Part shown: positions 3,828 to 34,351 of the stretch, in pieces
Numbering within the stretch: the stretch's first letter is position 1
Layout: the number at the start of each line of letters is the position of its first letter
Source: Salinigranum halophilum
GTDB taxonomy: Archaea > Halobacteriota > Halobacteria > Halobacteriales > Haloferacaceae
NCBI RefSeq assembly: GCF_007004735.1
Contig: NZ_SSNL01000003.1
Span: 372,001-436,000, forward strand
Length of the DNA stretch: 64,000 bases
Reading direction: 5' to 3'
Position numbers and translations under genes: made by a program
The notes under the pieces: generated by a model
What the model was told of the DNA's origin: nothing
What the model saw: only the letters and a program-made list of their open reading frames with translations
Databases searched by the model: none

Positions 3828-3944
3828 TTATACGTCGAGCTTGAGGATCGCCTTGGCCACCGGAGCCGCTGGTAGGTCGGATTCTGCGAGTGCTTGGAGC
3901 TCTCGACGATTGATTTTGACCTTGCGCTTTACGTCATCTTTCAT
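3828..3944 (-). CDS. Micro-protein of 38 residues, last gene of a four-gene operon
   Basis: The frame begins with ATG at 3944, which overlaps the stop of the upstream 54-aa gene (ATGA arrangement), and ends with TAA at 3828-3830. The peptide is basic at its N-terminus (MKDDVKRKVKINRRE) with a helical middle. No motif or family is recognised. Support comes from translational coupling and non-random composition. It could be a small regulator or an unexpressed frame. Confidence 0.5.
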   Translation of the reverse strand: MKDDVKRKVKINRRELQALAESDLPAAPVAKAILKLDV

Positions 3945-4105
3945 CTGTTACCACCCAGTCCAGCGTCGACAGCGGTGTGACCGTACAGGTGCCACGCGAA
4001 GTAGTGGTAGTCCTCGCCCCGCTTCGCCCCACAGAGAGGGCACTCCACCGTGACGAGGTATCGACCCGTGCTTGCTTGTCGATGGCCGATGTCACGAATC
4101 GCCAT
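3941..4105 (-). CDS. 54-residue C2H2-type zinc-finger protein
   Basis: Read from ATG at 4105 to TGA at 3941. It shows ECPLCG (C22, C25) then, 13 residues later, HLYGH (H39, H43), a classical Cys2His2 spacing with aromatic residues between. It overlaps the upstream 68-aa gene by 14 bp and the downstream 38-aa gene by the ATGA junction. Such single-finger proteins are common in haloviruses and are presumed DNA- or protein-binding. Its target is unknown. Confidence 0.65.
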   Translation of the reverse strand: MAIRDIGHRQASTGRYLVTVECPLCGAKRGEDYHYFAWHLYGHTAVDAGLGGNR

Positions 4106-4298
4106 AGGTCTCCTCGACGTATTTCACTTGGTGCGGCGGGTACCGTCTCAATTCCTCGCTGTCTTCGTCGACGATGGCGGCCACCCACCCGTTCTTACAC
4201 ACCCACAGGCGGTAGAACGTGAGCGTGGTACCGTCTTTGGTGACGAGGCGCGGCGTGTCCTCGTTGACCTCTTTTCGGGTGGTTCGCTGGTGGCTCAC
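4092..4298 (-). CDS. Small protein of unknown function (68 aa)
   Basis: Starts with GTG at 4298, whose bases overlap the stop of the RHH/winged-helix gene (GTGA), so the two are translationally coupled. The product is a compact mixed-charge protein with a beta-rich centre (TLTFYRLWVCKNGWVAAIVDED) and no zinc motif or membrane segment. It is the second gene of the leftward operon 4681-3828. No family recognised; perhaps an accessory factor of the upstream DNA-binding protein. Confidence 0.6.
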   Translation of the reverse strand: MSHQRTTRKEVNEDTPRLVTKDGTTLTFYRLWVCKNGWVAAIVDEDSEELRRYPPHQVKYVEETYGDS

Positions 4299-4681
4299 TG
4301 GTGAATCACCTTGTAGGAGACGAACCGCCCAGTCGTATCCGACTGCATCCGGAGATATCCGCGCCTACAGAGCGGCGCGAGGAGGTAGCGACGGACGGAA
4401 CGCTTGTCCATCGAAAATTGCTGAGAAAGCTTCCCCACTAGCACACGGCTATCCATCCATCCGCTCTCTGGGGCCGCCCGCCTGATAGCACGGTACGCCT
4501 GTGCCAGTTCATCGTCGTTGGGAAGTTCGACCTCGTAGTCGTCGTCACTCGGGAGATGTGCCCGAATTGCTTCCCGAATAAACTCCGACTGACTACCCGG
4601 CTGTGCCTCGACTGCCTCTTTGAGCGACGGGGATACTCGCGCAGATAAGACAGGCCGCTCATCTTCCAGCGAAAACGTCAC
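4295..4681 (-). CDS. Ribbon-helix-helix plus winged-helix DNA-binding protein
   Basis: A 128-aa protein. Residues 12-47 have the beta-helix-helix pattern of CopG/Arc-type regulators (SARVSPSLKEAVE...SEFIREAIRAHL). Residues about 60-128 look like a winged helix with a recognition helix near RSVRRYLLAPLCRRGYL. Start is GTG at 4681, preceded at good spacing by GGAGG. It heads a leftward operon with three tiny genes. Two 15-bp repeats with internal dyad symmetry lie 50-110 bp upstream and are the best candidate operators, so it may control itself; this is an inference. Confidence 0.7.
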   Translation of the reverse strand: MTFSLEDERPVLSARVSPSLKEAVEAQPGSQSEFIREAIRAHLPSDDDYEVELPNDDELAQAYRAIRRAAPESGWMDSRVLVGKLSQQFSMDKRSVRRYLLAPLCRRGYLRMQSDTTGRFVSYKVIHQ

Positions 4682-8516: not shown

Positions 8517-11500
8517 ATGAGTCAGGCGACGCTCGGGCCGACGCCCTACAACAATTCGAATCTTTTCTCCGGCTATTACCTCGAAGAACGAGTTGACGAT
8601 CTCGACACCTGGGACTGCGACGAAGAGGCAGAAGTGGCGTTCGAGGAACTCCAACGAATCTGGGAACTGGAATTCGAACTCGTAGAGTCGTACAAGGAAG
8701 ACGAGTTGCTCAGTTCGTGGATCGATGAGGTCCTCGACGTTCTCGGTTTCGGTACCCTGGCGGAAACGACTTTACCCGAGAAGGGTGGCTACAATGACCG
8801 TCTGCTCTTCGAGTCCGACGAGGTTCGCCGCGATGCGAGTCTCCGAAAGCGTGACGGGGAAGTCGAGGCGATGTACGGGCTTGCCTCTGCGGTACTCGAA
8901 GCGAAGCAGTGGGGTGCTGATTTCACTAAACGATTCGCCGAGACGCGGTCGTACCGTGACGCATCCCACCAGATCAAATACTATCTTGAGCACACCCCGG
9001 AGCGACTCCAGTGGGGGATACTGACGGACGGAAAGAAGTGGCGACTGTACGGGACGAAAGACTACGCGACCGAGACGTACTACGAGGTCGACCTCCCCGA
9101 ACTGCTCATGTCGGGGGACGTTGAGAAATTCAAATATTTCTACCTCTTCTTCCGGCCCGAAGCCTTCCGTGAAGTCTCTGGCACTTCCTTCCTCGAAACC
9201 GTCTGGAACGAATCCGAGACGGCCGCACAGGAACTCGGGGAGGACCTTCAGGACAACGTCTTCACTGCCCTTCGGGTGCTCGGTGAGGGGTTCATCGAAA
9301 CCAACGATCTCTCTATCGACCCCGACGACGCCGAAGCCCGTGAGGAACTGAAAGAGCAGTCGCTCGTCCTCCTCTACCGGCTGATGTTCGTGTTGTACGG
9401 CGAATCTCGCAATCTCATCAGCCCCGACGAACCGGCCAAACAGCGAGAGTTCGAGGAGAATTTCAGCCTCGACGAACTTCGGTACGAGATTCACGACAAC
9501 ATCAGTTCGGGAGGGTCGTTCGAGGAGTACAGCGAGTACTCCACCTCGATGTGGGGGCGACTGCAGGACCTCTTCCGACTCGTCGACTCGGGCGAAGAGT
9601 CGCTGGGAGTTCCCCCATACAACGGCGGCCTGTTCGACGGCGACTCACACTCGTTCCTCGAACGGAACGAGGTGTCCGACCGGTACATCGCCGAGGTGGT
9701 GTACCGACTCGGAACGACGCGAGCGGACGACGGTGATGGGTTCGTGCTTGCGGACTACGCCGACCTCGACACTCGGCACCTGGGGACGATCTATGAGGGA
9801 CTCCTCGAACACGAGTTCCGAATCGCACCCGAACAGTACGCCGCTGTCGCCGAGGACGGTAGACAGGTGTGGAAGCCCGCGACAGAGGTGAGTGTCGCCG
9901 AGGCTGTCGAGACAGTCGAGCGAGGAGAGTTGTACGTCGTCAACGACGATGGCGAGCGGAAGGCCACGGGTGCGTACTACACACCCGACTACGTGGTGGC
10001 GTACATCGTCGAGGAGACAATCGACCCCCTGCTGGCCGATATCAAGGAAGAGCTACAGGCGGATGGCCTGGAGCCGAGTGACCGCGAGTACTTCGCTCGA
10101 TTCTGGCAGTCCGTGCTGGACCTCACGGTACTCGATCCTGCGATGGGCTCGGGCCACTTCCTCACGAAGGCGACCGGCTATCTGACCGAGCGGGTGATGG
10201 AGGTCGTCCGCGAACAGGAGATCCAGAGCTACGACGAGCAGGACCTGCGGCGACAGATCGCCAAAGAGTGCATCTACGGCGTCGACGTGAACGGAATGGC
10301 CGTCGAACTGGCGAAGCTCTCGATGTGGCTGGAGACGCTTGCGGCCGACAAACCGCTCGCGTTCCTCGACCACCACCTCAAGGCCGGTAACTCGCTCGTT
10401 GGTTCGGACATCACGGAGGTCCTCTCTGACGATGCCGACGAGGAGGGTGGACAACTCACTCTCATGCAGGCTGCTGCGCGAGTTCGTCGTCGGACTCTCG
10501 AACACGTGATGGAACTGATGCAGGATCTCCTCGCCATCGATAACGAGCGACTGGAAGACATCAAGTCGATGGAGGAGCTGTACGACGAGATCCGTGACGA
10601 CCCGTTGTATGGGCGGCTCTTCGAGTTAGCGAACGTTCACACGGCGGAGCGGTTTGGGTTGGACGTGCCTGAGGGTGTGTACGAGGAAATGGCTGGCGCG
10701 ATTGAGGACGGTGATGAGTGGGCCGAAATTCGTGAACGGGACTGGTTCGCCTCGGCGCAGGCAACGGCTGGTGAGGAGGATTTCTTCCATTGGGAGCTTG
10801 AGTACCCGGAGGTGTTCTTCGGGAGCGAGGGTAAGAGACGTGAAGACGCCGGATTTGATGCAGTCATTGGAAACCCCCCTTACGTACGTATCTATGGAGA
10901 CACACTCCCCGAGGACTACGTCGAATATCTTAGAGAGGTTTACGAAACCGCTCACATGAAATTTGATTTGTATGTCGTATTCACCCAACTAGGGATTGAG
11001 TTAGCCCAAGATGGTGGCACATTCTCGTATATCATCCCGGACAAATTCACTAGCACCCCGTATGGAGAGCCTCTGCGGAATTTGATTTTGGAAGAGACAG
11101 AGATTCTGTCGATTTTGGACCTTCGAGAGCGAGAGGTATTCGATGGAGTGACTGTCTCCAACCTCATCCCCGTGTTGCGACGCAGCAGTGCAGCCAGAGA
11201 TTCGGTGGAGATTCGCAACCTAGACGGCATTGACACTATCGAAACAACCCAACTGAGTCTTGAAGCGATTGTCGGTGATGAAGACAATTCGTTCCGTCTC
11301 GGCCGCTCTGTAGAGGATTTCAAACTCACCGAGAGTATCCGAGACCAGTCGATTCGGTTTGATTCTATTTTTTATACAAACTGGGGACTCAGAACCGGAA
11401 CGAAAGAAAAAACGGAGCGATTCGTCGTCGAGGAATCTTCGGATCCTAGAGCAAAGCCGATGATTCGTGGGAAGGATATCATTGAGCGATACCAACTACG

Positions 11501-12650
11501 ATCTCCTCAAGAGTACATCATCTATGAAAAGCCAGAGTTGTACAACCCGATGTTTGAGGAATTGTTTGAAAGTGACAAGATCGTCTTTCGAAAAATTAGT
11601 GGAAGGGGATTGATGGCTGTGGCCGACGAGAGTGGATACTACTGCTTCTCCACACTCATCCCCTGTGTGAACATTCGACATGTTGCGAATGTTTCTCGCT
11701 CAGGGATTCCCGAGGTCACGGAGGAGTCGAAGTCGTATCAGGACATGTACTACCCGCTCGCGGTGGTAAATTCGACGTTGATGGAGTGGTTCTACGGTGT
11801 CAATTTGTCTGATGATCTGAGCGTCGTGCCGGGTCATATTAACGAACTACCGATTCCAGCAATCGAGGACATAAACTCGGAGGTGGATGAAGAGGAGTAT
11901 GAGACAAGACTTGATGTGGTGATGGCTGGGGTTCGTGACGAATCGGAACTCGATACGGCGATGGAGGCGGTTCACGGATTACATTCAGATCGAATCTATC
12001 ACGACCTTCTCGCAGATCTTGGTCGGGAAATGATGGATATGAATACCAAACATATTGAACTCAATCTCTCACTGCTTGACTATCTTGGAACATATGACGA
12101 GGGACCGACTCTGGTTGATGTAGGATTCACCCAGCCCCCACCGAACGCTGCGGAGTCGGTTCTCCAAGAAACAACTAAAGAGAAACCAAATCTTCGGATC
12201 GGTCGGGCTGAAGTACATCGTGAATCAAAATCAACCGTTGAAATCGAACTCACTGCGCGGTACAAGCCCGATGATGACACGGTCGACACAGACCAGTGGG
12301 GATACACCGAAACTGAGCTCCTCCCCGCATTACGAATCACCGACCTCTCGGCTACCGAGGCTGAGTTAATTGAAGCGTTCGTCCCGGTCGCCGTCGACGA
12401 AGCTGGTGGGTTCGCCAACTTCCGTGAAACAGCAACGAAAACAAATTCGCTCATTGACCGGCTTCGCAAGCTCACACTTCCGCAAATCAGTAGTGTTCAG
12501 GACGGCTTGGAGAGTTACACAAAAACACGAGAGCGTGCCGACGAACTGGAGTCAAGGATCGAACGTACAGACGACCTAATTGACGAGATTGTCTACGAAC
12601 TGTACGGGCTGTCCGAGCAAGATATTAGGACCATAGAAGCGGCTATTTAG
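8517..12650 (+). CDS. Type IIG restriction-modification enzyme (Eco57I-like, single chain)
   Basis: A 1,377-aa protein joining nuclease, methyltransferase and specificity parts. The N-terminal PD-(D/E)xK-type site is visible as NDRLLF (D94) and EAKQW (E128, K130). The conserved GAYYTP stretch precedes SAM-binding motif I, DPAMGSGHF (540-548). The amino-methyltransferase motif NPPY is at 786-789. The remainder should hold target recognition and helical linker regions. It would methylate host adenines and cut unmodified DNA, so it could exclude rival phages. No separate methylase or specificity gene is present. GC drops sharply from about 10,850, near NPPY, to the end. BREX PglX is an alternative, but it lacks the nuclease-like N-terminus and no BREX partners occur here. 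Confidence 0.88.
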   Translation: MSQATLGPTPYNNSNLFSGYYLEERVDDLDTWDCDEEAEVAFEELQRIWELEFELVESYKEDELLSSWIDEVLDVLGFGTLAETTLPEKGGYNDRLLFESDEVRRDASLRKRDGEVEAMYGLASAVLEAKQWGADFTKRFAETRSYRDASHQIKYYLEHTPERLQWGILTDGKKWRLYGTKDYATETYYEVDLPELLMSGDVEKFKYFYLFFRPEAFREVSGTSFLETVWNESETAAQELGEDLQDNVFTALRVLGEGFIETNDLSIDPDDAEAREELKEQSLVLLYRLMFVLYGESRNLISPDEPAKQREFEENFSLDELRYEIHDNISSGGSFEEYSEYSTSMWGRLQDLFRLVDSGEESLGVPPYNGGLFDGDSHSFLERNEVSDRYIAEVVYRLGTTRADDGDGFVLADYADLDTRHLGTIYEGLLEHEFRIAPEQYAAVAEDGRQVWKPATEVSVAEAVETVERGELYVVNDDGERKATGAYYTPDYVVAYIVEETIDPLLADIKEELQADGLEPSDREYFARFWQSVLDLTVLDPAMGSGHFLTKATGYLTERVMEVVREQEIQSYDEQDLRRQIAKECIYGVDVNGMAVELAKLSMWLETLAADKPLAFLDHHLKAGNSLVGSDITEVLSDDADEEGGQLTLMQAAARVRRRTLEHVMELMQDLLAIDNERLEDIKSMEELYDEIRDDPLYGRLFELANVHTAERFGLDVPEGVYEEMAGAIEDGDEWAEIRERDWFASAQATAGEEDFFHWELEYPEVFFGSEGKRREDAGFDAVIGNPPYVRIYGDTLPEDYVEYLREVYETAHMKFDLYVVFTQLGIELAQDGGTFSYIIPDKFTSTPYGEPLRNLILEETEILSILDLREREVFDGVTVSNLIPVLRRSSAARDSVEIRNLDGIDTIETTQLSLEAIVGDEDNSFRLGRSVEDFKLTESIRDQSIRFDSIFYTNWGLRTGTKEKTERFVVEESSDPRAKPMIRGKDIIERYQLRSPQEYIIYEKPELYNPMFEELFESDKIVFRKISGRGLMAVADESGYYCFSTLIPCVNIRHVANVSRSGIPEVTEESKSYQDMYYPLAVVNSTLMEWFYGVNLSDDLSVVPGHINELPIPAIEDINSEVDEEEYETRLDVVMAGVRDESELDTAMEAVHGLHSDRIYHDLLADLGREMMDMNTKHIELNLSLLDYLGTYDEGPTLVDVGFTQPPPNAAESVLQETTKEKPNLRIGRAEVHRESKSTVEIELTARYKPDDDTVDTDQWGYTETELLPALRITDLSATEAELIEAFVPVAVDEAGGFANFRETATKTNSLIDRLRKLTLPQISSVQDGLESYTKTRERADELESRIERTDDLIDEIVYELYGLSEQDIRTIEAAI

Positions 12651-14524: not shown

Positions 14525-16525
14525 CTACGTCTCTCGGAGGTCGTCGAACCAGCACCCAGCCCCACTCCCAGCGAAGCCGACCTTTCCGGACTGGTACGTC
14601 GTGTCGTTCGCGGTCACGCTGTCGATCTCCGTCCCGTCCTCGTGAGAAGCCGTGAGGTTGAGCGTGCCGTCGGCTTTCACCTGCATGACCAGTTCGACCC
14701 ACGTATCGGCGATAGCGCCGATGTCGGCACCTTCGACGAGCGTGGTCGAGGCACCGGCGTCGAGTCGCTTGATATTGAGGCTCTTGGAGAAGCCCTGGTC
14801 GAACTCCAACTGGTAGCCGCTCACGTCGGCAATGCCCGTCGAGGTGGGCTGGACCATGAGCATCGGCTTCGTGACGTTGCCAGCGAAACAGCGGACCCAC
14901 AGCCGGTACTCCCGACCGAGGGTAACGTCGCCGTCCGCGTCACTGCGGAACACTAGTGCGCTCGCCTCGCTCTTGAGAGAGGCGGCCCCCTCGTGCGTGA
15001 TGCCGGTGTCGAACGAGAAGCTCGCCGTCTCACCCGAGTAGTTGGCGAGTGACTGGGCCTCGAAATCCTCGACGGTCCGATTGAGGACGAGGGCGTTGTT
15101 GAACGCCGCGCCGTCGTAGTTCTTGAGCCTCGAAGTCTGCCACTTCGCTCCGGTGAAGAACTCGGGCGCGTTCGGCGTCACGAACGACGAGCCGTTGTAC
15201 GCCTTCAGCTTCCCGATTGCGGGCTTCGTCGTAGGTGCCGTGACGTTCGGCGGCGGTGGCGGCGGTGTCTTGTCGCCCTCTGCGGGGTTCGAGCCGTCGC
15301 CACCGGGTGCGGGACCACCGTCGAGCACTCGGGGGAAGCCGGGGCCGATATCGCCCGCAACCTCCCACGCGCCGAGATCGGGGTCGGACCCGTCGTACTC
15401 CTCGATGCCGATGGAGAGGATCGCTCCCGAGTTGATCAGAGGGGACACCGAGGGGGTGGGCCGAAGGAAGTCGGGGTCCGTATCGGTGAGGGAGGCAAAC
15501 TGCGGGTTCGAGATGCCGAGGTTCCACGCGTTGTTGACCGCGTCGTGGTGGAGAAGCGAATCGGCGTTCTGGTAGCTCACGCAGTTGCGGAGGTAGGCGA
15601 CCTTCCCAGCGAAAGTTACGTCCCCGTAGACGTGGAAGCCATAGAGGTCGTTGTTCCACGCGGTACAGTTGTAGTACTTGATCGGGTAGCTGGCCCCGTT
15701 GTTGTCGAAGCCGCGGCGTCCGTTACTCCACGCGGCGCAGCGATAGACGAGGTGTCCGCCACCGTTACGGGACGCTCCGCCGCCACCCATCTTGAAGCCG
15801 TTTCCGTCTCCGGTCGCGCCAGTACCGGTTTCGGTCCCGTTGTCGTAGGCGACACAGTTGACGAGGGTACACGGGTCGGTCGGATCTGCTGCCCAGAAGT
15901 CGAAGCCGTCGTCGGCATTGTTGTAGGCCGCACAGTTCTCGAACACGATGTTACGAGCACGGCCCTGTGTCGCGTTTCCGCCGACGTAGAAGCCGTCCGA
16001 GTGTGATGCCGTCCGGCCCGTGTGACAGACGACGTTCCGACACCGGTTGTTGTACGTGTCGCCGTAGAAGATGATACCGTTTCCAGCGGTCGAGCTACCC
16101 GCACCCCCGTAGTGGTGGACGGTCAAATCCTCGTACAGGTTGTCGTGAGATACGAGATTTCCGCTGGTCGAGCACCGAATCATGTTGTCGCCGATGTTCT
16201 TGAACTCGATTCCACGAATCACCCACCACGCGGATCCGAACATATCGACGCCGTTCCCCTCGCGGTCGCCGAAGTCGACGACCGGTGACTCTCCGGCGTA
16301 GTTCTCGAACGTGATGGGATTCGCTTCGGTCCCTTCGATTGTCGAGAAGTCGATTTTCTCCGAGGGTGTGAGCGTGGCCGTGTCGCGGAGCTTGATCGTG
16401 TCTCCCGCACTGGCTTCGAGGCGACCCTGGTCTTCTATCGGTTCCGTCGTTGCGAGCGCGGTAACTTCGGACGTACCAGCCGCTGCGTCGTCGCCGTTCA
16501 GTGGGTCGATGTAGTAAGTCGTCAT
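14525..16525 (-). CDS. Parallel beta-helix spike/host-recognition protein
   Basis: A 666-aa protein. Residues 1 to about 410 are a right-handed parallel beta-helix of the pectate-lyase/tailspike type. The entry YYIDPLNGDDAAAGT is typical, and repeating turns follow (IVFENCAAYNNADDGFDFW, LVNCVAYDNGT, YRCAAWSNGRRGFDNNG, YNCTAWNNDLYGFHV). A run of six prolines near 420 links to a jelly-roll-like C-terminal domain (about 490-666). Such proteins bind or cleave surface glycans. Its place in the virion operon suggests the receptor-binding spike, the most variable part of SH1-like viruses. Confidence 0.8.
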   Translation of the reverse strand: MTTYYIDPLNGDDAAAGTSEVTALATTEPIEDQGRLEASAGDTIKLRDTATLTPSEKIDFSTIEGTEANPITFENYAGESPVVDFGDREGNGVDMFGSAWWVIRGIEFKNIGDNMIRCSTSGNLVSHDNLYEDLTVHHYGGAGSSTAGNGIIFYGDTYNNRCRNVVCHTGRTASHSDGFYVGGNATQGRARNIVFENCAAYNNADDGFDFWAADPTDPCTLVNCVAYDNGTETGTGATGDGNGFKMGGGGASRNGGGHLVYRCAAWSNGRRGFDNNGASYPIKYYNCTAWNNDLYGFHVYGDVTFAGKVAYLRNCVSYQNADSLLHHDAVNNAWNLGISNPQFASLTDTDPDFLRPTPSVSPLINSGAILSIGIEEYDGSDPDLGAWEVAGDIGPGFPRVLDGGPAPGGDGSNPAEGDKTPPPPPPNVTAPTTKPAIGKLKAYNGSSFVTPNAPEFFTGAKWQTSRLKNYDGAAFNNALVLNRTVEDFEAQSLANYSGETASFSFDTGITHEGAASLKSEASALVFRSDADGDVTLGREYRLWVRCFAGNVTKPMLMVQPTSTGIADVSGYQLEFDQGFSKSLNIKRLDAGASTTLVEGADIGAIADTWVELVMQVKADGTLNLTASHEDGTEIDSVTANDTTYQSGKVGFAGSGAGCWFDDLRET

Positions 16526-17121
16526 GCGAGGCTCACCGTGCCGGTCTTGGTCGTTCCAGTCGAGTCCTTGACCTCGAAGACGAGGTTCGATCCCGCCTCG
16601 TCGAGTCGGACGCGCATTTCGTTGTTCTCCAGCGTCTCGGCCGTCCCGCCGTCGACGACGCCGTGTATCAGCTCATCTCCGGCCACTCGTGCGACGTTCT
16701 CGGTATCGACGACAGCCCCGTACCCGAGTGCCGTCGAGGCCGTCTGGTTGGCCTCTGCGGACGGTCCCACGGCCACGCCTCGATACGCCCGCGACTTGGT
16801 GGCGTAGCCGACAGCGACCTGCTGTGCGCCGCCTGTCCCCAGCACGTCCGAGGCAGACGCCGAGGTGCCGATACCGACGCTGTTCGGGACGCGAACCAGA
16901 GAACCGCCAATAGCGGTGGACCCTTGCGGAACTGCCTCTGCCGGGGCGTTGATTGCGGTGGCGTGTTGGCCGTCCGCCTCGGTGCTGTACCCGAGAGCGA
17001 GGGCCGGGGCACTCGACAGGCCGTTGTCCGCCACGGCGTCCTGCCCGAGCGCCATGTTCACCGTGCCGAAGAGCCGCTGGCGAAGGAGCTTCGCCATCGG
17101 CTCAGTCGTCCCTATCGTCAT
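16522..17121 (-). CDS. YadA-head-like fibre protein
   Basis: A 199-aa protein whose middle is built of short Ala/Gly/Ser repeats of the trimeric YadA/haemagglutinin head type: ALGYSTEADGQHATAIN, SVGIGTSASA, QVAVGYATKSRA, GVAVGPSAEANQTAS, ALGYGAVVD. In bacteria such repeats make a left-handed trimeric beta-roll used for adhesion. The C-terminus is a beta-rich domain. It overlaps the spike gene (ATGA), so the two are probably made together as one vertex complex. Trimerisation is an inference from the repeat. Confidence 0.7.
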   Translation of the reverse strand: MTIGTTEPMAKLLRQRLFGTVNMALGQDAVADNGLSSAPALALGYSTEADGQHATAINAPAEAVPQGSTAIGGSLVRVPNSVGIGTSASASDVLGTGGAQQVAVGYATKSRAYRGVAVGPSAEANQTASTALGYGAVVDTENVARVAGDELIHGVVDGGTAETLENNEMRVRLDEAGSNLVFEVKDSTGTTKTGTVSLA

Positions 17122-17327
17122 GGCGAGGAGGTGTCGATCCAGAGGTCGCCCGCCTCGGGGTTCGCCGGAGCGGTGTCCCCGACGTAGAGCTTTACGTCAC
17201 CGTTCGAGATGACGAGGTTGTCCCCGTTGAGCGTCACGTTCTCCGGTGTCGGCATCGCAGACGAGTAGACGGAGCGTTCGAGGAGCTTGATGCGTTCGAC
17301 GAGATCGGTTTCTTCTGCGTTTGGCAT
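17118..17327 (-). CDS. Small virion-associated protein (69 aa)
   Basis: From the ATG at 17327: an N-terminal helix (EETDLVERIKLLERSVYS), a beta-hairpin (NVTLNGDNLVISNGDVKLYVG) and the ending PEAGDLWIDTS. The GDLWIDT tail is common at the end of phage fibre and tail-associated modules, where it marks a surface-exposed beta segment. It overlaps the fibre gene and probably serves as an adaptor or collar. No name can be assigned. Confidence 0.65.
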   Translation of the reverse strand: MPNAEETDLVERIKLLERSVYSSAMPTPENVTLNGDNLVISNGDVKLYVGDTAPANPEAGDLWIDTSSP

Positions 17328-17335
17328 TGGTGGAT

Positions 17336-17749
17336 TCAGTACCCCACGATAACGACCGTGGGCGTCGTGGCTGCGGAACTCTGCTGTCGGACCCACACGT
17401 ATGCCGAGTTGAGGGGTGGTCGGCCACCCATCGAGAACTCCCCCACGTCGTCGAGGGGGATCGCGGCTGACTCGGTGTTTTGTGGATTGCGAAAGGCAAC
17501 GTCGATATCGTCGGTGTGGCGGATCGTGACCTCGGAGAGCACCCGGCCAAAGTCCACTCTCTGCCAGTCGTCGGACGCGACCTCGACCGGTTCCGGCCCT
17601 GTCGAAAAGTACGTCGCCGTGTTGCCCGACCGTGGCTGGTCGAGGGCGGGCCTCGCGCCGTCCTCGTCGTTCTCTTTCGAGGCCAGCGCCTTGCGGATCG
17701 CCTTCAGTTCGGCGAGGGCTTCGTCACCCGCGTCACGGAGGAACGGCAC
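17336..17749 (-). CDS. Virion operon protein of unknown function (137 aa)
   Basis: An N-terminal coiled-coil-prone helix (DEALAELKAIRKALASKEND) is followed by a beta-rich domain (TYFSTGPEPVEVAS...VTIRHTDDIDVAF...YVWVRQQSS..VVIVGY) that looks like a jelly roll ending at the last residue. Soluble. It lies between the two-TM 175-aa gene and the GDLWIDT gene with short spacing, so it is expected in the capsid or vertex. Confidence 0.65.
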   Translation of the reverse strand: MPFLRDAGDEALAELKAIRKALASKENDEDGARPALDQPRSGNTATYFSTGPEPVEVASDDWQRVDFGRVLSEVTIRHTDDIDVAFRNPQNTESAAIPLDDVGEFSMGGRPPLNSAYVWVRQQSSAATTPTVVIVGY

Positions 17750-18276
17750 TACTGCGTCCCCCCGTTGAGCGCGTAGTTCATCACGACCGCGACGACGAGG
17801 AGTGTGACGACGAGTCGCGTCGTCGAGTCGCCGAACAGTCCACTCTCGTTGCCCTTCGTATGGGGAACAGTACGCTCCCGACTTTCGAGGTACATCTCGA
17901 CGAGCTTCTGCCGCGCTTCTGGTGGAAGGTCCGAGTTGATGATGTCGGCGAGGGCGTCGTCCGCACTCTGTTCCGTCTCGGCAATCTCCTTCATGCGCCG
18001 TACGTCCTGTTCACGGAACAGGAACACGCCGCCAGCGGTGGTCGCGCCGACGACGGCGGCGGGCTTCCAGTACGATCTGACGATACTGTCACCACGGCTC
18101 GCGGCGTCGTCGACGACGTTCCCTGCGTCGTCCACGACCTTGCCCGTCCGTTCGGCTACGTCGTCGACCAGACGTTTCGCCGGCCCAGTCCCGATGTCGT
18201 CGACGAGCTTCATCGCCTTCGAGATGGGAACGCCAGCGACTCGGGCGAGCTTGATTGCGATTGTGCTGTATACCAT
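17749..18276 (-). CDS. Membrane-anchored virion protein with VDD repeats (175 aa)
   Basis: Residues about 24-65 contain repeats of VDD(I/V/A) spaced 11, 12 and 7 residues apart, as in a long coiled coil. They are followed by a TM segment (PAAVVGATTAGGVFLF), a charged helical stretch and a second TM near the C-terminus (LVVTLLVVAVVMNYAL). The same VDD-type repeat plus Gly-rich TM layout occurs in the 801-aa neighbour. Its ATG overlaps that gene's TAA. Probably an internal-membrane virion protein in the VP5/VP10 position of SH1-like viruses; the exact equivalence is uncertain. Confidence 0.65.
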   Translation of the reverse strand: MVYSTIAIKLARVAGVPISKAMKLVDDIGTGPAKRLVDDVAERTGKVVDDAGNVVDDAASRGDSIVRSYWKPAAVVGATTAGGVFLFREQDVRRMKEIAETEQSADDALADIINSDLPPEARQKLVEMYLESRERTVPHTKGNESGLFGDSTTRLVVTLLVVAVVMNYALNGGTQ

Positions 18277-20683: not shown

Positions 20684-20863
20684 TCACGCACCCCGCAACT
20701 CGGTGTAGATGAGGAACAGAAGGACGACCGTGAGAACGTCGAGGTACAGCTGAGCATCGGACTTTTCGACCGAGATAGAACTCTCGGCTCCAGCCCGACG
20801 CTCGTTGGCCTCGACGGCCTCGGCACGGTACTCCGGTGTTTCTCGGATACTTTCTCGGATCAT
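20684..20863 (-). CDS. Small single-TM virion operon protein (59 aa)
   Basis: Begins MIRESIRETPEYRAEAVEAN, a charged helix, and ends with a TM helix (YLDVLTVVLLFLIYTEL). The ATG at 20863 overlaps the stop of the 65-aa gene, and its stop is followed directly by the 801-aa gene. The N-terminal arm plus single TM is typical of small proteins of the internal membrane in SH1-like virions. Confidence 0.6.
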   Translation of the reverse strand: MIRESIRETPEYRAEAVEANERRAGAESSISVEKSDAQLYLDVLTVVLLFLIYTELRGA

Positions 20864-21067: not shown

Positions 21068-21772
21068 TCAGAGCTTGATGTCGACTTTCTGCTCGAAGGT
21101 GGACACGTAGCTACCGGGGTAGTCGTCGTCCGTCCAGACGATCTGAGTATCGCTGTCGAACACGAGTTCCAGCTTCTCGTACTGGCCGAACCGGATGGAC
21201 CCGTGCATGTTGACCTCGGTGCCGCGTTTGTTCTGGTCGAAGTCGAGGAACCGGTACACGGGCGTTCCCCAGTCGGAGATAACGCCCTCGACCTGCCCGA
21301 ACTGGTTCACACCGCGGTACTTGAGCGTCCCGTCGCTCACCGTCGGATAGACCTTCACGTTGTCCGCGCCGTTCGGCGGCGCAGCGGCGAAGGTGATGGT
21401 ATTGGCAGTGTAGTCCACCGAATCGATGGCAAGCTCGGACCCGCCGACCTCGGCAGCCACGACGGTCGGGAACTTCTGGTCTGCCAGTTCCGTCTCGCCG
21501 TGGTGCGACTGAAGCGGTGTCGTGAGAGTGAACGTCGTAGTCGCACCGTCGCCCGAGAGGGTTTCCATCGTCCGGGGAACGAACTTCGTCGGGTGGCGCT
21601 GTGCGACCAGTTCGATCCAGTCGAACTTGTCGGGACACTCGAAGGCGAGAATCGGCGTCTCAAGCTGGGGAGATACCTGGTTCTGCGAGCGGACGACGTA
21701 AGAGGAGCCGAGGACGGACCCCGTCTGCGAGATGGTGTACTCCTGAATCGACTCGTTGGTTGCGGCGGACAT
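21068..21772 (-). CDS. Large major capsid protein, VP4-like
   Basis: A 234-aa soluble beta-rich protein with no signal or TM, as expected for a single vertical jelly-roll capsid protein. SH1 VP4 is about 232 aa and is encoded directly after VP7, the order seen here. Beta-strand-rich segments include GATTTFTLTTPL, NTITFAAAPPNG and EKLELVFDSDTQIVW. It would form the capsid lattice with the small capsid protein around the internal membrane. The call rests on size, order and fold pattern, not on an alignment. Confidence 0.75.
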   Translation of the reverse strand: MSAATNESIQEYTISQTGSVLGSSYVVRSQNQVSPQLETPILAFECPDKFDWIELVAQRHPTKFVPRTMETLSGDGATTTFTLTTPLQSHHGETELADQKFPTVVAAEVGGSELAIDSVDYTANTITFAAAPPNGADNVKVYPTVSDGTLKYRGVNQFGQVEGVISDWGTPVYRFLDFDQNKRGTEVNMHGSIRFGQYEKLELVFDSDTQIVWTDDDYPGSYVSTFEQKVDIKL

Positions 21773-22320
21773 CAGCGGCCACCTCGCGTCGAGGCACGCT
21801 TGACGGCCTTGCTCTCCTCGGTCGTGAGGTCACTGTGGCTCACGATCTCGGCTGGGACACCGAAGTCCGAGGTGTCGTCACCGATGGTGAGGCGGCTTTC
21901 CGAGGCGCTGAAGCCGTTGGAACCAGCCGGGATGTCGATGAAACATCGAACCAGCTCATCCTCGTCGATCATCAGCGGCTTCGTGACCTTCCGGAAGTAG
22001 TCGGGATCGGTCCTCATCTGCTCGTAGTCGAACGACGAGAGGAGGTCCGTGATAGCGATCTTGCCACCGAGTCTGTTCCCCTGGCGGTCGCACTTCTGGA
22101 GCGTGACGCGGGCACTGGGATCGATGGGGGCTCCCGCAGAGTCCCGGAATTCGGGGGCGAAGTTGGCCCCGACCGGGATTCCAACGACGTAGCCGCGTGG
22201 CCCCTTGATCTCGTAGGCCGGTGTTTCGGAGTCAGCCGCCGCAACGTCTTGCTTCGTGACGAAGGGCTTGCTGTCGTCGATGGTGAGTTCCTTTTCGACG
22301 GCCTGGTTTGCGATTTCCAT
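21772..22320 (-). CDS. Small major capsid protein, VP7-like
   Basis: A 182-aa beta-rich protein (SH1 VP7 is about 185 aa). Stretches such as YEIKGPRGYVVGIPVGANF and ARVTLQKCDRQGNRLGGKIAITDL fit a single jelly roll. The stop overlaps the ATG of the VP4-like gene, linking their synthesis. The pair defines the capsid type of Halopanivirales. Identification is by length and synteny. Confidence 0.75.
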   Translation of the reverse strand: MEIANQAVEKELTIDDSKPFVTKQDVAAADSETPAYEIKGPRGYVVGIPVGANFAPEFRDSAGAPIDPSARVTLQKCDRQGNRLGGKIAITDLLSSFDYEQMRTDPDYFRKVTKPLMIDEDELVRCFIDIPAGSNGFSASESRLTIGDDTSDFGVPAEIVSHSDLTTEESKAVKRASTRGGR

Positions 22321-22331
22321 TGTTGTGTGGT

Positions 22332-22616
22332 TTAAATCAGACCGAACTCGTTAGCGGCCACGCGAACGGCGGTAGCGGTCGAACCCATCGCCAGCGGTCG
22401 GCCATATCGGCCCGGAAGAATCGCCAGCGAGAGGAACGCCGTTACGACGGCGTACACGGCGTCCCCACCACGCATGGAGAGGTCCATGACGTTCGAGCGC
22501 ATCCAGTTTGTCGCGATCTGTGCGAGAAGCGAACCCGCGACAATCATGACGGCGGACTTGATGAACGCCGGGGCCATGAGGGTCGAGGTGGCACGATTCA
22601 CACTAAGTGAAGCCAT
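22332..22616 (-). CDS. VP12-like small membrane protein, first gene of the virion operon
   Basis: A 94-aa protein with two to three hydrophobic helices (APAFIKSAVMIVAGSLLAQIA, AVYAVVTAFLSLAILPG, and a weaker C-terminal one). SH1 VP12 is a membrane protein of about 10 kDa encoded just before VP7. The ATG at 22616 is chosen because it follows a box A-like CGTATAACC at the distance expected for a leaderless late transcript; the open frame runs 14 codons further up. Confidence 0.7.
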   Translation of the reverse strand: MASLSVNRATSTLMAPAFIKSAVMIVAGSLLAQIATNWMRSNVMDLSMRGGDAVYAVVTAFLSLAILPGRYGRPLAMGSTATAVRVAANEFGLI

Positions 22617-22642
22617 TACGAGACGTGCCTTTCCGACCTGTG

Positions 22643-22666
22643 CGGTTATACGGGCCAATTAATTGG
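22643..22666. promoter_or_regulatory. Late promoter with adjacent 12-bp palindrome
   Basis: In the 141-bp divergent gap, the minus strand carries a box A-like GTATAACC (about 22643-22650) 27-34 bp from the ATG at 22616. Immediately upstream is the perfect palindrome CCAATTAATTGG (22655-22666), and a wider GCCAAT...ATTGGC pair overlaps it. A regulator here could control both capsid and ATPase operons. Confidence 0.55.
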
Positions 22667-24032: not shown

Positions 24033-24430
24033 GCGGCATGAGGGGCCTGAATATCGACATGGGGCCACAGCAGGTGATGGGGCTGATGAACGACCCCAAA
24101 GGCGTCGAGAGGATGTTGAAGCAGGCTAGCGACGAGACGGGCGACAGCCCAGCGGACATCATGGCGGACATCATCAACATCCAGCGGCTCGACACCAAGA
24201 TGATCGCCAAGCAGCAGGGCGTAGATCTCGAAATCAACGAGATGACGCCCGAGCGGGCGGCGGAACTGCTTGCGGGCGTGATTCAGGGCGAGGGTGTGGC
24301 CCTGCTCATGGTGTTCAACGAGTTGGAGGACTACAACCACCAGATCCTCCGCGAAGCGATGGGTGAAAACGAGTTCGAGAACTACCGTCGTGCGAAGGTC
24401 GGCAGTCTCAATTCGACGACGGACGAGTAA
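24029..24430 (+). CDS. Small helical protein upstream of the packaging ATPase (133 aa)
   Basis: A mostly helical soluble protein (PQQVMGLMNDPKGVERMLKQASDETG..., ERAAELLAGVIQGEGVALLMVFNELEDYNHQILREAMGENEFENYRR). No catalytic motif. Start ATG 24029 overlaps the previous stop and its stop overlaps the ATPase start by one base. This coupling suggests a partner or regulator of the ATPase. Confidence 0.65.
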   Translation: MSGMRGLNIDMGPQQVMGLMNDPKGVERMLKQASDETGDSPADIMADIINIQRLDTKMIAKQQGVDLEINEMTPERAAELLAGVIQGEGVALLMVFNELEDYNHQILREAMGENEFENYRRAKVGSLNSTTDE

Positions 24431-25158
24431 TGGCCCGTATCACCGTTCTCGGTCGAAGCGGGACCGGCAAGAGCTACTACACGGGCTATCTCCTCGAACA
24501 GTCGGTGCCGGACTTCGACCTCGCCGTTCACATGGATATCGAGGATGAGGAAGGCGGGCTGTCCGACCAGGACAACGAGTATGACCCGCTGTACCTGACG
24601 CTCACGGTTGACAAAGACACGGCCAACGCTCTCGACTGGGTGCGTGTGCTGTGGAACCACCGGAAGGTTCGAGTCGTTCCCGACGACCTCACCCACGACG
24701 AAATACGCGAAATGTTCGCGGCGATCTGTCGGGCGGTCATGCGACTGTGCAAAGACATCCGGCCCGAACTCACGGCGTTCATCTCGTGTGACGAGGCCCA
24801 CAACATCCTGAAGGAACACGACTTTCCCGAGGCGGTCGAGCGGGCGATCACGGGTGGTCGGAAGCACGGCGTCGAGACGCTGTTTTGTTCCCAGCGCCCG
24901 GCTCTCCTGCCGACGACGCTTATTTCGCAAGCGGACAAGCGGGTGTATTTCGCGCTATCAGACGATAACGACATCAAGAAGGTGAACAAGACATCCTCGT
25001 TCCCCGGTGACAAACTGGCGAAACTCCCCGCTCGGAAGGCTATCGTCGAGAACAAAGCCACCGGCCAATGGGAGGAACTTGAGACAGATGGTATCGGGCG
25101 GAAGCGTCCGCACTTTTCCGGCGACGACGGAATCGCCGACCGTCACTTCCCGATATAG
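24430..25158 (+). CDS. Genome-packaging ATPase (HerA/FtsK-like)
   Basis: A 242-aa P-loop ATPase that should translocate viral DNA into the membrane-containing capsid. Walker A is GRSGTGKS (8-15), Walker B FISCDEAH (117-124, with D121 and E122), and the glutamine sensor region LFCSQRP is at 151-157. Length and motif spacing match the short packaging ATPases of SH1-like and other internal-membrane viruses. Last gene of the 22758-25158 operon. The Arg finger cannot be assigned with confidence. Confidence 0.87.
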   Translation: MARITVLGRSGTGKSYYTGYLLEQSVPDFDLAVHMDIEDEEGGLSDQDNEYDPLYLTLTVDKDTANALDWVRVLWNHRKVRVVPDDLTHDEIREMFAAICRAVMRLCKDIRPELTAFISCDEAHNILKEHDFPEAVERAITGGRKHGVETLFCSQRPALLPTTLISQADKRVYFALSDDNDIKKVNKTSSFPGDKLAKLPARKAIVENKATGQWEELETDGIGRKRPHFSGDDGIADRHFPI

Positions 25159-26015: not shown

Positions 26016-29000
26016 TTAGAGGCTCACTCCGACGAATTTCAAACTATCGACGCCTACGAAGTCCATCTGGTTCGGTGCTTGAATCCATGTCTCGAAGTCC
26101 ACGACCTGCTCGCGTGCTTGTATGCCTTCGTCCATGTCCTGAGCCTTCGGCGACCGGCGACGGTGGTGTTCGAGCGCCTTCTGATAGTCGGTGTCCATGA
26201 GGCTCGTCGCCGTGGCGTTCGCAGCGACGGCAACACCGCCATCCGTCGCCATGTCGATCATCGGATCGTAGGTCGGCGCGTCGAACTCGAACAGCCCGCC
26301 GAGGCGACCGAACAGCGTAGTGCCTTCCGTCTCGGCGGTCGGGGCGTTCGTCCCGGCGTCTCCCCACTCGACGTTCACGAGTCTCGGGAGGTCGGCGAGA
26401 GCGACCGTCCGTTGTTCCTTCTTCCCGCCTTCGGTCTTGACGGTCACAGTCGTCTGTATCTCCATCGGCTCCTGTCCGAAACGGGCTCGAACCTCGTTGA
26501 CCATCGACCCGTACTCGCGGGCCTCTCGGAGAGCGTCGTTGTAGTTCTCGATGGCCTTCTTGCTCTCCTCGGCTTCGAGAGCGGCGGCCCGAAAGCCGTT
26601 CCACGCTCGCTGTAACGTCCGAAGCGCGAAGGGCGGAAGCTCGGTGCCGTCGCCACCAGCGACCTCGACGACCTCGGCGGTGACAGCTTCCTCGCCCTCC
26701 TCAATCGGCCCACCGTCGTCCGTGATCAGCGAGTCCATACGGAACTCCATCTCGGCCACGTCAGCTCTCATCTCCTCGATTTCCTCGTCGGTCCAGCCGC
26801 AGTCACTCACGAGATGGACACAGGCGGCTTCGTCGCCCTTCCCACACCACTCCTCAGCGTGATGGCACTCCTCGCCCTGGGCTTTCTTGGCGCTCTTGGC
26901 GCGTCGTGCGACGACGTGTGCGGCGTCGTCCTCGTCGGCGTCGGTGTAGTTCGCACCGCCCCCACGCTGGGCACCTGCCCCCGTCCCGTCCGCATCGAAC
27001 TGCATGGTCCGGGCGGTCTGCTGGGGCACTAGTGAGAGGTGTTCGCGGGCCTCGATTGTGTGGTCGTACTTCGCCAGCCAGTCGGAGATGCCGTGGTACG
27101 TGAGGATGGCCTTCGCGCTCCGAGCGTGGAAGCCGTGGGTTCCCCACGTCCACCCGTCACGCTTCTTGAGACGCTTCTTCTCGTCGTCGGTGAGATCGGT
27201 CTGTCCGTATTTTACATCGCTCTCACGCTGGTCGTCCAGAGTTTCGGTTTCCCACGTGTCGCGCTCTTTCTCCGAGAGGGCGTCGGCGTACACCTCGACG
27301 GTCTTGTGTCGACGGTCGTATTTGCTCGTCTCGGCCTCGTCGGGTAGCTCATCGCGCATGAGGTTCGCGGCTTCTCGGGTGTCGAACCTGTGCGAGAGTG
27401 TCTTGCGGTAGCCGTCGCCGTTGTCGTCCTCGGCAGTGGACTGGATGGCCTGCTCGTCGGCCTCCTGCTCAGCGTCTCGCTCGGCGTCGAGGGTGTCGAG
27501 CACGTCGAGGTCGGCTTTCTCTGCGGCGGTCGCGTCCAAGTTGGCGAACACGGCGAATCCGGCGGCGGTGTCCTCTTCCTCGTAATCTCGCGTTTCGTCG
27601 TCTTGGTAGAGGAAGTTGCTCACGTCGAGGTCACTGACGGAGGCACCCATGTCCTTCCCCAATGCCCACTCGACTTCGGAAAGCCCGTCGAACGCCGGTC
27701 CCCACACGTCCTCGTCCGACATCTCATACAAGGCGTCGGCCTTCGCGTCGGCGGCGTCGAGAGCTTCCCGTGCGTACTTCTCGGCGTCCCACTCGTCGCT
27801 CGTGGATTCGTCGCCGATAGCGTCCCTGACGAGTGGGACGATCTCGACGAGTCGGTCGTTCATCTTTGGCCCCACCTTGTCGATATCGCCGAAGCCTCCG
27901 TGGGTATCGTAGTAGGCGACGAGGCCTGCTACATCATCCACCTCGTTGCGGAGGTTGTCGGCTCCGAAGCCGTCGATGTCGGCAACGTTCAGGACCAACC
28001 AGAGATCGTCGTTCGCGGCGTGGTGGCGAATCTGCCCGACTTTCAACTGGGTGAGGCGCTTACCTCGAATCTCCGACTCACCCCACGGTTGCTTTTCTCG
28101 GAGCTTCGATTCCTGCTGGCGCTCGAACTGTTCGAGGCCCTTCGTGTCCGCGGTCCGAACACCGAAGCGACCCAGCCCCTCACGTTCGTTCTCGACGCTG
28201 GTGGGTTCGCTGGGCGTGGCGAGGTAGCCCTTGTTCTGCGCAGCGCGGTGTTCGCGGCTGGTGCTGTCGGTCCCCTCCTGAATCTCTATGCCGAACAGTT
28301 CGAGACCCTGCCCCGCGCCACGGTCGTCGCGATTGTCGGTCCACTGCTCGGATTCGTCTGTTGCCTGCTCCGGGTTCTTCGTGTCCTCGAAACCGGTTTG
28401 ACTCTCGAACTCGCGCCAGTCGGCGTCACCGGACACAAGCCGTTCGTCGGTGGGCTTACTGACGAACAGTCGCCACTCGTTGTCAAACTCGCGCTCATTG
28501 AGGGGAGGAGGGAAGCCGTAGTCACGGAGGCCGTCTTTGACGGCGTTGACGGTGTCCTCGTTCCACGAGTCGTCCATCACGATGACGGGCTTGCCACCGA
28601 TTATCTCGACGTAATACCGACCGTCTATGCCCGCGTTCGGACCCTCTTTCATCCACCAGAGGGCTTGAGCGGCCCAATAGTGGGCGTTCTCCATGTGCTT
28701 GTCCTTGAACGGGCCGGTGTAGTCGTCGGCCTCGACGGCTTCGGCTGCTATGTCTCCAGGGTTGTGGTTCTGCATCCAGTCGGTCGCCAGTTCGACTGCC
28801 TTGTTCCCGAACACGCCGCTTTCAACGCGCTCGATAGTCCCCCAGTCGGACTCGACAACGACGTTGTGACGGTTCTTCTCGGCGCTTTCGACCGTCACCC
28901 ACACAGTGTTCTCGGGATTGATGTAGGTCCACCACTCGCCCTCGTAGCGTTCCCATCCGTTGATGTTCTCGGGGATCGGTGCGGCTCCATCGAAGGCTTC

Positions 29001-33028: not shown

Positions 33029-34351
33029 CTACTCCTCGCCCATTTCAGCCCGCAATTCCGCGAGAAGTTCTTCCTTCATTTCGGCCATGATAGCGGCTTT
33101 TGCGTCGGGATCGGACAGAATTTCTTTCGCTGCGTCGAGTCCCTGCTCTTCCTCGACCGTCTCAGTCTCGCCCTTCGACTCCCACAGTGCTTTGTCGGCC
33201 ATCTGGTCGATGTTCTCTGCCGAGTGCCTGAGTGGGACACCGCATGAGTGACAGAACGCAACCCCTGTGAGATTCGAGATCGTGACACCACAACTCGGAC
33301 AGTTCTCGAACAGGTGGCCAACCTCTTCTTCGTCGTCGTCGGTGGCCATACCGTAGTGGTCCTCGATGTCCTCGGCGTGGCTCTTGTCCTTGAGGGAACC
33401 GTATCGGTCGAGGTGCTGACTGTCGCTGTGCCAGCCGACCATGTATTTGATACGCTGGTCGCTGAGACCATCCCGGATCATACGGCGAATCGCGGTGTGG
33501 CGTAGCCGATGGGTTTGTGCCTTCTCTTCGTCGACACCCGCGGAGGCAGCGAGCCGAGAGATAGTTTTCTCGAAGCCGGAATAGCCCAACGGGTCACCCT
33601 TGTTGTAGTGACGCCCTCCTCGCATGGTGACGAACAGTGCGTCGTCCTCGTCGTAGTCGGGCCAGTGCGGGTGTTTGTTGAGCCACCGCGTCACGTAGGG
33701 AGTCGCCCAAATCATCGGTCGGTAGCCCTTCGCCCCTTTGAGGCCGGCAGCCTCCGGATTGAGATTGAAGCCACCGCGATTCCCCTTAATCTCGATATCC
33801 TTCAGTCGGATCGAAGCGAGGGCACTGATGCGCTGTCCGGTAGCCAGCATGAGCGCGAGGATCGCCGAGTCTCGCTCGTCGGCAACCATGAACATCTTGG
33901 CTGTCTCGTCGGAGGTGAAGCAGTCGTCCTCGGTGATTTTTCCTGGGGTAGGTTGCCCGACCTCGATCTCTTCGTGCCAGTCACGACCCAGGTGTTTGAA
34001 GAACAATCGAAGGGCTTGACGGAACGACCGGACGTACTCTGCGGAGTATCCCCCCTTCTTGGCACCTTCGATGGTGCCCTGCTGTAGCCCATTGAGGAAG
34101 TGGGAGAAGTCGGAGTTGTACTCGTCGTGCTCGTACTCGTGTAGGGGCTTGTGGGTCAACTCGGCACACCGAATCAGCATCGTGAGCAGGTTGCCCTGTG
34201 TGCTGGCTTCGTATTGACCGCTGGCGTCACGGCGGTCCATGAGAGCTCGAATTGCCTGTCGGTCTTTGTCGTCTATCTTGGCCTTTTGAAGCCGCTTCCG
34301 AGTCTGCTGGTATTTGCCTTCGTAGTCCGAGGGGTCGTTGACTGATACCAC
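33029..34351 (-). CDS. Tyrosine integrase with C-terminal zinc ribbon
   Basis: A 440-aa site-specific recombinase (phage integrase family). With the GTG at 34351 as start, the catalytic residues are R174 (TGQRISAL), H281-x2-R284 (HRLRHTA), H308 (VGWHSDS) and nucleophile Y317 (HLDRYGS). An N-terminal SAM-like core-binding domain covers about 40-130. After the catalytic domain come a Cys4 ribbon (CPSC at 351-354, CHSC at 367-370) and a coiled coil. The TTG at 34357 is an alternative start. It reads away from the right end, ~50 bp from attR, as usual for the enzyme that made the insertion. Confidence 0.92.
   Translation of the reverse strand: MVSVNDPSDYEGKYQQTRKRLQKAKIDDKDRQAIRALMDRRDASGQYEASTQGNLLTMLIRCAELTHKPLHEYEHDEYNSDFSHFLNGLQQGTIEGAKKGGYSAEYVRSFRQALRLFFKHLGRDWHEEIEVGQPTPGKITEDDCFTSDETAKMFMVADERDSAILALMLATGQRISALASIRLKDIEIKGNRGGFNLNPEAAGLKGAKGYRPMIWATPYVTRWLNKHPHWPDYDEDDALFVTMRGGRHYNKGDPLGYSGFEKTISRLAASAGVDEEKAQTHRLRHTAIRRMIRDGLSDQRIKYMVGWHSDSQHLDRYGSLKDKSHAEDIEDHYGMATDDDEEEVGHLFENCPSCGVTISNLTGVAFCHSCGVPLRHSAENIDQMADKALWESKGETETVEEEQGLDAAKEILSDPDAKAAIMAEMKEELLAELRAEMGEE

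Follow-up and report, generated by a model that had tools for sequence, protein, structure and literature searches.

A predicted PL9 lyase and a YadA-head-like protein encoded at the spike locus of an SH1-like provirus of Salinigranum halophilum

Which proteins occupy the spike locus of an SH1-like provirus, and what might they do at the host surface? This question is raised by a stretch of 64,000 nucleotides of the Salinigranum halophilum genome (contig NZ_SSNL01000003.1, positions 372,001 to 436,000; G000:C2:372001-436000 within the 4.2 Mb host genome), hereafter the window. Judged by its gene content, the window contains an integrated SH1-like provirus (alphasphaerolipovirus-like, Halopanivirales), because homologues of VP4, VP7, VP12, VP9 and VP10 and a packaging ATPase occur in SH1-like order. 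An earlier note on this DNA had proposed that two minus-strand genes joined by an ATGA overlap and encoding proteins of 199 and 666 amino acids (aa) form a receptor module in which a bacterial-adhesin-like trimer is combined with a tailspike-like fold. Both open reading frames (ORFs) and their overlap were found as described. That note overlooked the complete active site of polysaccharide lyase family 9 (PL9), the lectin-like domain, the membrane-protein gene that follows and the relatives encoded elsewhere in the host genome. Our analysis suggests, with a probability of roughly 0.64, that these two proteins make up the host-recognising portion of a spike at the virion vertex, which would bind and cut a uronic-acid-containing host surface glycan. 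Spike proteins are described as the least conserved structural part of such viruses, and receptors and entry steps as largely unknown (PMC4958249).

A PL9-type domain and a lectin-like domain in the 666-aa protein

Analysis of the 666-aa protein revealed a PL9-type beta-helix (residues 1-395), a low-confidence linker (approximately residues 399-532) and a beta-sandwich resembling galectin and CBM66 (approximately residues 535-666). The Pfam matches above cut-off were Pel9A-like_beta_helix (PF22842; 1.7e-7, 31 bits against a cut-off of 25.2) and Beta_helix (1.4e-6). A profile built from this protein and four haloarchaeal relatives matched Pel9A (1ru4) with E=4e-45 and a PL9 rhamnogalacturonan lyase (5olq) with E=1.4e-25. 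The AlphaFold2 model, computed from a 34-row alignment, has a mean predicted local distance difference test score (pLDDT) of 75.9; its beta-helix is modelled confidently, with pLDDT >=90 in 31 of the first 39 ten-residue blocks. Pfam and model agree with the earlier prediction of a parallel beta-helix.

The label tailspike-like does not describe this helix well. The top Foldseek entry for the model was 1ru4 (E=1.1e-17), and the VIA-align comparison of model residues 1-390 with 1ru4 gave a Z score of 45.0 and a root-mean-square deviation (rmsd) of 1.8 A over 353 residues. Free PL9 enzymes ranked first (Z 45 and 39) and are the nearest solved structures; the best entry outside PL9 reached Z 33.8, and the best tailspikes reached Z 28.6 (rmsd of 19 A over 416 residues) and Z 27.4 (2.5 A over 275 residues). 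Membership of the 666-aa protein in PL9 is well supported by these profile and model comparisons. The viral protein is 28% identical to 1ru4 and differs from Pel9A in its additional linker and lectin-like domain and in its place in a virion operon; the parallel beta-helix and the aligned calcium-binding aspartates and catalytic lysine are common to the viral protein, Pel9A and 5olq.

Five residues of Pel9A were located in the viral protein, and the offset between chain position and published Pel9A number is 25 for all five. One of them, Asp234, which we take to be a further calcium ligand, aligns to viral D206. The others, Asp209, Asp233, Asp237 and Lys273, align to D177, D205, D209 and K245. 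In a review, the three aspartates are given as calcium ligands of Pel9A and Lys273 as its base (PMC10992409). In two sets of haloarchaeal relatives assembled without recourse to motifs (16 and four proteins), all 20 proteins have all five residues. The rows of the 34-row alignment were picked, among the matches listed, by motifs containing D205, D206, D209 and K245, so the conservation of these four residues within it is partly by construction; two of 35 translations, containing stops, are left out of it. D177 lies outside the selection motifs, and the motif-free sets constitute the fair test of conservation. By alignment, the predicted active site of the PL9 domain is complete, with calcium aspartates and catalytic lysine. 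The PelN model (NCBIfam NF041899) scored 75 bits against a curated cut-off of 740; the protein is no PelN, and pectate itself is therefore not implied as the substrate.

Foldseek matched galectin and CBM66 chains to the 666-aa model over 135-163 columns (E approximately 5e-5 to 3e-4, target template modelling score 0.57-0.70). The match is assigned to the C-terminal sandwich, because its length would fit only that domain. In BFVD, two proteins (R4TNE6, and R4TMF9 of Halogranum tailed virus 1) matched over approximately 157 columns, which is the length of the lectin-like domain. No lectin-like domain was found among other halopanivirus spike proteins, and a comparison of the domain with phage DNA gave no match.

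The 199-aa YadA-head-like protein and the spike slot

The YadA-head-type repeats that had been proposed for the 199-aa protein were confirmed. Pfam YadA_head scored 35.6 bits (E=1.1e-8), higher than its curated cut-off of 25, and a profile of the protein and three relatives matched the solved heads of BpaC (7o23, E=9.7e-19) and YadA (1p9h, E=1.5e-15). The core motif, which was defined after viewing the sequence, recurs at steps of 14, 13, 20, 14 and 14 residues, and an equal number of motifs appeared in 11 of 2000 shuffles. The 14-residue head repeats are like those of YadA and BpaC (profile E down to 1e-18); the viral protein differs in being much shorter, in lacking a recognisable YadA anchor and in having its own C-terminal domain, common to its halopanivirus-like relatives. 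At E<=1, YadA_head was the sole Pfam match; the C-terminal membrane anchor of YadA was not among the matches, and a trimeric autotransporter adhesin is accordingly not supported. Modelling showed the beta-helix of the 666-aa protein; the single-sequence AlphaFold2 model of the 199-aa protein was unusable (pLDDT 41, no roll, the final 35 residues forming a small beta domain). The YadA beta-roll is thus a prediction from sequence.

The C-terminal 61 residues of the 199-aa protein align with a protein of locus L073 and with one protein of locus L072, and none of 500 shuffles scored as well. Kinship with these two relatives does not therefore depend on the repeats alone. For a second YadA-like protein of L072, the C-terminal score was reached by 50 of 500 shuffles and the repeat count was weaker (87 of 2000). 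PHROG matches in L073 identify genes for a packaging ATPase (phrog_2666, 5e-21), for a capsid protein (phrog_12934, 7e-4) and for a homologue of VP9 (phrog_16614, 2e-6). Immediately after the VP9 homologue come the YadA-like gene and a gene for a small membrane-type protein. L072 encodes an ATPase (7e-12), two YadA-like proteins and a capsid protein with 31% identity to its L073 counterpart; no penton was recognised in it. Capsid hidden Markov models were built with the window's own proteins, which makes their matches in the window circular, and they were used for L072 and L073 only; the capsid assignments in the window rest on PHROG and phmmer matches. No PL9 domain was found within the 19.9 kb stretch of each locus. 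YadA-like proteins hence occur without a nearby lyase in two divergent halopanivirus-like elements.

The divergent capsid type was found in 61 of the 391 genomes of the class, and two of the 61, G031 (L073) and G159 (L072), gave a YadA-like match. Weak YadA matches also appeared in G249, G051, G017, G192 and G110. A YadA-head-like protein of G325 (L231, 8997-9938) has by eye a leader of the twin-arginine translocation (Tat) type, and no viral capsid genes were found nearby; YadA-type repeats are therefore also a feature of archaeal proteins that seem to be secreted. Searches of IMG/VR with the 199-aa protein as a single-protein scan, with the YadA profile and with the L073 YadA protein gave no relatives. 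Two side observations concern the divergent elements. In L072, an AbrB/VapB-like and PIN/VapC-like gene pair (3903-4594, by eye) lies between the ATPase and capsid genes. On contig G341:C1, a capsid gene of a divergent halopanivirus type is present four times; every copy contains a TAA, and three copies lie approximately 22 kb apart.

The pair is encoded behind VP9, the gene of the penton, with a single small ORF intervening, at the position where SH1, PH1, HCIV-1 and HHIV-2 keep their spikes; the locus is therefore the spike slot, as the earlier note had it. Pentons are described as adaptors for differing spikes, and, as had also been stated, the proteins of SH1 (VP3/VP6, also in PH1 and HCIV-1) are replaced by others in HHIV-2 (VP16/VP17) (PMC6414509). 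The backbone that these four isolates share with the provirus consists of VP2, VP10 and VP9 or the HHIV-2 gene 22 penton; their ORFs differ in having no PL9-domain similarity at E<=1.

The expectation of a third solution at this locus counted too few. Seven other SH1-like loci with a strong VP4 match (L021-L027) were compared, and two with weak VP4 matches (L028 and L029) were left out as having no other structural homologue. L021-L024 have a penton of the HHIV-2 gene 22 type, followed in L021 by a VP16-like protein and in L022-L024 by long proteins. Among the long proteins, GLUG-motif similarity is weak in L022 and L023 (E 0.001-0.005, below cut-off) and visible by eye in L024, where the protein is split into two ORFs; a CarboxypepD_reg-like part is present in all three, above cut-off in L022 only. 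The long putative spike gene of L023 (8054-12654) is interrupted, by eye, by a transposase-like insert (8574-9999). L025, L026 and L027 keep VP9 and then encode other large proteins, for which no Pfam match at E<=0.01 was found (L025 and L027 searched). L025 and L026 (G326:C1:1953000-1968500 and 1980500-1996500) lie approximately 28 kb apart in one genome and are 99.9% identical over 13.8 kb. The seven loci hence hold at least two further arrangements. Exchange is concentrated at the spike slot, which holds many unrelated solutions, and the pair is therefore not simply a third one. A search of IMG/VR with a VP4 profile gave no contig beyond four corresponding in length to the four isolates.

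The coordinates of the provirus genes are collected in the table, in which the minus-strand genes stand in operon order.

Table. Genes of the SH1-like provirus in the window
Feature	Position	Strand	Evidence or remark
VP12 membrane protein homologue	22332..22658	-	phmmer 2.7e-37 to PH1 VP12
VP7 small major capsid protein	21772..22320	-	phrog_12422 E=5e-74; SH1 VP7 4e-69
VP4 large major capsid protein	21068..21772	-	51% identity to SH1 VP4; phrog_12934 E=4e-75
VP13-like small protein	20684..20863	-	phmmer 5.5e-6 to SH1 VP13
VP2+VP5-like fusion, 801 aa	18276..20681	-	similarity to VP2 and VP5
VP10 homologue	17749..18276	-	phrog_11985 E=8e-34; PH1 VP10 6e-26; SH1 VP10 1.7e-23
VP9 homologue, penton (spike platform)	17336..17749	-	phrog_16614 E=3.3e-21; phmmer PH1 VP9 6e-24, SH1 VP9 9e-24
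Small ORF between penton and YadA-like gene	17118..17396	-	92 aa from GTG; 69 aa from internal ATG
YadA-head-repeat protein, 199 aa	16522..17121	-	Pfam, profile and motif evidence
PL9-type protein, 666 aa	14525..16525	-	Pfam, profile, model
Predicted membrane protein, 101 aa	14217..14522	-	gene after lyase; position as SH1 ORF34 / HHIV-2 ORF27
Packaging ATPase of the same provirus	24430..25158	+	phrog_2666 E=7e-58; phmmer 1e-107 to HCIV-1 ATPase
VP1-like gene	26016-31886		far side of structural operon, with ATPase
Integrase	33029-34357

The operon had been thought to end with the 666-aa gene and extends one gene further: the ORF of the 101-aa protein starts 2 nucleotides past the 666-aa stop, and its hydropathy maximum is 2.62 over 19 residues. 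A second ATGA overlap joins the small ORF and the 199-aa gene. VP2 and VP5 are seemingly one fused protein in the window, L021, L025 and L027 and are encoded by two genes in SH1, PH1, HHIV-2 and HCIV-1; VP2 is described as the horn backbone in HCIV-1 (PMC6414509). G+C content is 0.53-0.64 across 2001-34000 and 0.65-0.71 past that range. The provirus ends were not located: an attachment-site check of the tRNA-Gly and tRNA-Thr regions found no direct repeat of at least 15 nucleotides, and a long pair of flanking repeats was likewise not found in 1-40000. Past the end of the spike operon, on the opposite strand (8517-12650, +), a 1377-aa type IIG restriction-modification or DrmMI-like protein is encoded (Eco57I Pfam 8e-36, PADLOC DrmMI 2e-96, weaker similarity to PglX), possibly a defence gene on the provirus.

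Relatives of the lyase in haloarchaeal genomes and virus contigs

Matches to the 666-aa protein at E<=0.001 were found in 21 of the 391 genomes, some covering the C-terminal domain alone; one PL9-domain match (G159:C30) was left out of the comparisons. The host genome itself encodes two further PL9-like proteins, one at G000:C8:105090-107018 (41% identical over the full length) and one at G000:C1:591320-592465 (46% over residues 3-391, with a Tat-type leader by eye). The C8 copy has the gene order of a Salinigranum marinum cluster and adjoins two glycosyltransferase homologues: the 19 kb examined there contain homologues of both Salinigranum glycosyltransferases and of a carbohydrate-binding protein, a small protein, an aminotransferase and an alkaline-phosphatase-family protein. 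None of these cluster neighbours was found beside the C1 copy.

Full-length relatives on plasmids of Haloferax larsenii (pHl5678-2) and Salinigranum marinum also adjoin glycosyltransferases, and in Haloferax larsenii an epimerase too. Together with the C8 copy, these haloarchaeal proteins, named right-handed parallel beta-helix repeat-containing proteins, have the full-length architecture of the viral protein, are 35-43% identical to it and keep the active site. They differ in being cellular and in being preceded by a PPC or carbohydrate-binding protein with a Tat leader, not by VP9 and a YadA-like protein. In the two plasmids, the PL9 gene is preceded by genes for such a PPC or carbohydrate-binding protein and for a small protein, and the first protein of the cassette has by eye a Tat-like leader in the six loci compared. 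The small ORF of the provirus shares a C-terminal motif of approximately 25 residues with five of the six small proteins beside cellular PL9 genes. Capture of a two-gene cassette, with the small ORF as homologue of the cellular partner, is not claimed, as the similarity is confined to these residues.

In a tree of 34 PL9 domains, midpoint-rooted for drawing only, the viral domain is sister to two Haloferacaceae paralogue groups (joint fork 97/92; sister group 98/95) on a long branch (0.71). A total of 33 PL9-like loci were found in virus contigs of IMG/VR, and two contexts were inspected: in L157 a tail collar/fibre gene lies approximately 4 kb from the PL9 gene, and L156 contains DNA polymerase, helicase and ligase genes. 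A single-protein scan of IMG/VR with the 666-aa protein gave no relatives. Tailed proviruses had been expected as the lyase source; the annotated contexts of the nearest full-length relatives were glycan clusters instead, although a viral intermediate is possible in view of the virus contigs. Judged by these comparisons, the lyase belongs to a PL9 group widespread in haloarchaea, whose nearest full-length members, including one in the host genome, stand beside glycan-synthesis genes.

Proposed role of the pair and alternative explanations

A spike role of the pair is likely. The YadA-head-like protein would probably serve as a stalk or as an adhesive part, at the VP9 penton or close to it, and the PL9 lyase would be tied by a flexible linker to the lectin-like domain. 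The latter may hold, and the PL9 domain may cut by calcium-assisted beta-elimination, an acidic glycan of the haloarchaeal host that contains uronic acid, either a surface polysaccharide or an S-layer glycan; the particle would thereby be held at the surface and would clear its way to it. Hexuronic acids are reported in the S-layer glycan of Haloferax volcanii (PMC3871713), and the acidic exopolysaccharide of Haloarcula hispanica is reported to contain glucuronic acid (PMC9943897); suitable bonds therefore exist in this class of cells. We infer the presence of the 666-aa protein in the virion, its lyase activity, its substrate, the source of its gene and the order of events. A more specific version, in which a true PL9 lyase drawn from the haloarchaeal host-glycan pool is coupled to a YadA-type stalk on the fivefold spikes, is tentative and falls somewhat short of even odds.

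A precedent is found in the fusellovirus SSV19, whose virion is reported to degrade host glycan, an activity that its authors attribute to the tailspike VP4 with its endo-mannanase domain (PMC12042106). The likeness lies in a virion acting on the surface glycan of an archaeal host. SSV19 differs in being a spindle-shaped virus of a hyperthermophile and in using a glycoside hydrolase, its degradation having been shown with whole virions (PMC12042106), whereas a predicted lyase of a tailless icosahedral virus is described here. Among the matches listed in searches of titles and abstracts, mostly of open-access literature, no PL9 or YadA-like protein is named in a halopanivirus spike. By these literature listings, an enzyme of this kind appears not to have been named before in a halopanivirus spike module; what is known is the variable spike module as a kind.

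Several observations weigh against a glycan-cutting spike. The pair, which was to be sought in other Halopanivirales, was recovered in part: YadA-like proteins occur in L072 and L073, and the PL9 domain is absent there, from all seven other loci with strong VP4 (0/7) and from all four isolates (0/4) in the stretches compared. The PL9 profiles do not give the substrate, and glycans are not always the target, since the tailed haloarchaeal virus HRTV-DL1 is reported to be unaffected by host N-glycosylation (PMC10384203). The provirus may be inactive. Furthermore, virus contig L156 branches in the tree just outside the group formed by the viral and Haloferacaceae proteins (95/87), so a viral source of the lyase is possible.

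Among the alternatives, the lyase fold could serve for binding only, the groove of the beta-helix and the lectin domain recognising a glycan without cutting it. The presence of the lectin-like domain fits such a function, but the calcium site and catalytic lysine are complete here, and a protein that only binds could do without them; we consider this explanation unlikely.

It is quite unlikely that the lyase acts outside the virion, as a lysogeny or late gene product that remodels the host surface in superinfection exclusion, in the loosening of exopolysaccharide or biofilm, or in release. Its close relatives are encoded by cells, within glycan clusters, the host has two PL9-like proteins of its own, and just one operon gene comes after the 666-aa gene. 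However, the gene is ATGA-coupled to a YadA-like gene whose L073 relative directly follows a VP9 homologue, and it sits where four of four compared isolates have spike genes. No N-terminal hydrophobic stretch, as for secretion from a living lysogen, was seen in the 666-aa protein; this absence is itself no evidence for a virion role, because cellular copies of the cassette type start alike.

The model of the earlier note, in which bacterial adhesins and tailed phages would have supplied a trimeric adhesin and a tailspike-like trimer, can draw on the YadA-head repeats, on tailspikes being of the same beta-helix class and on PL9 proteins in virus contigs (the tail fibre gene of L157 and the tree position of L156 included), but is very improbable given the far better fit of PL9 enzymes, the place of the viral lyase among haloarchaeal PL9 proteins and the lack of a bacterial-type YadA anchor among the Pfam matches.

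Depolymerase activity is known mainly from tailed phages. A glycan-cutting spike of the kind proposed here would give a tailless virus a route to such activity. In the more specific, tentative version, a vertex that served as receptor only would have become receptor-destroying by the swapping in of a host enzyme, and divergent halopaniviruses would use the YadA-type stalk without the enzyme. The predicted complete active site at the spike slot names a testable class of substrates, uronic-acid-containing surface glycans, and the homologues in the host's own genome make the exchange of genes between virus and host testable.

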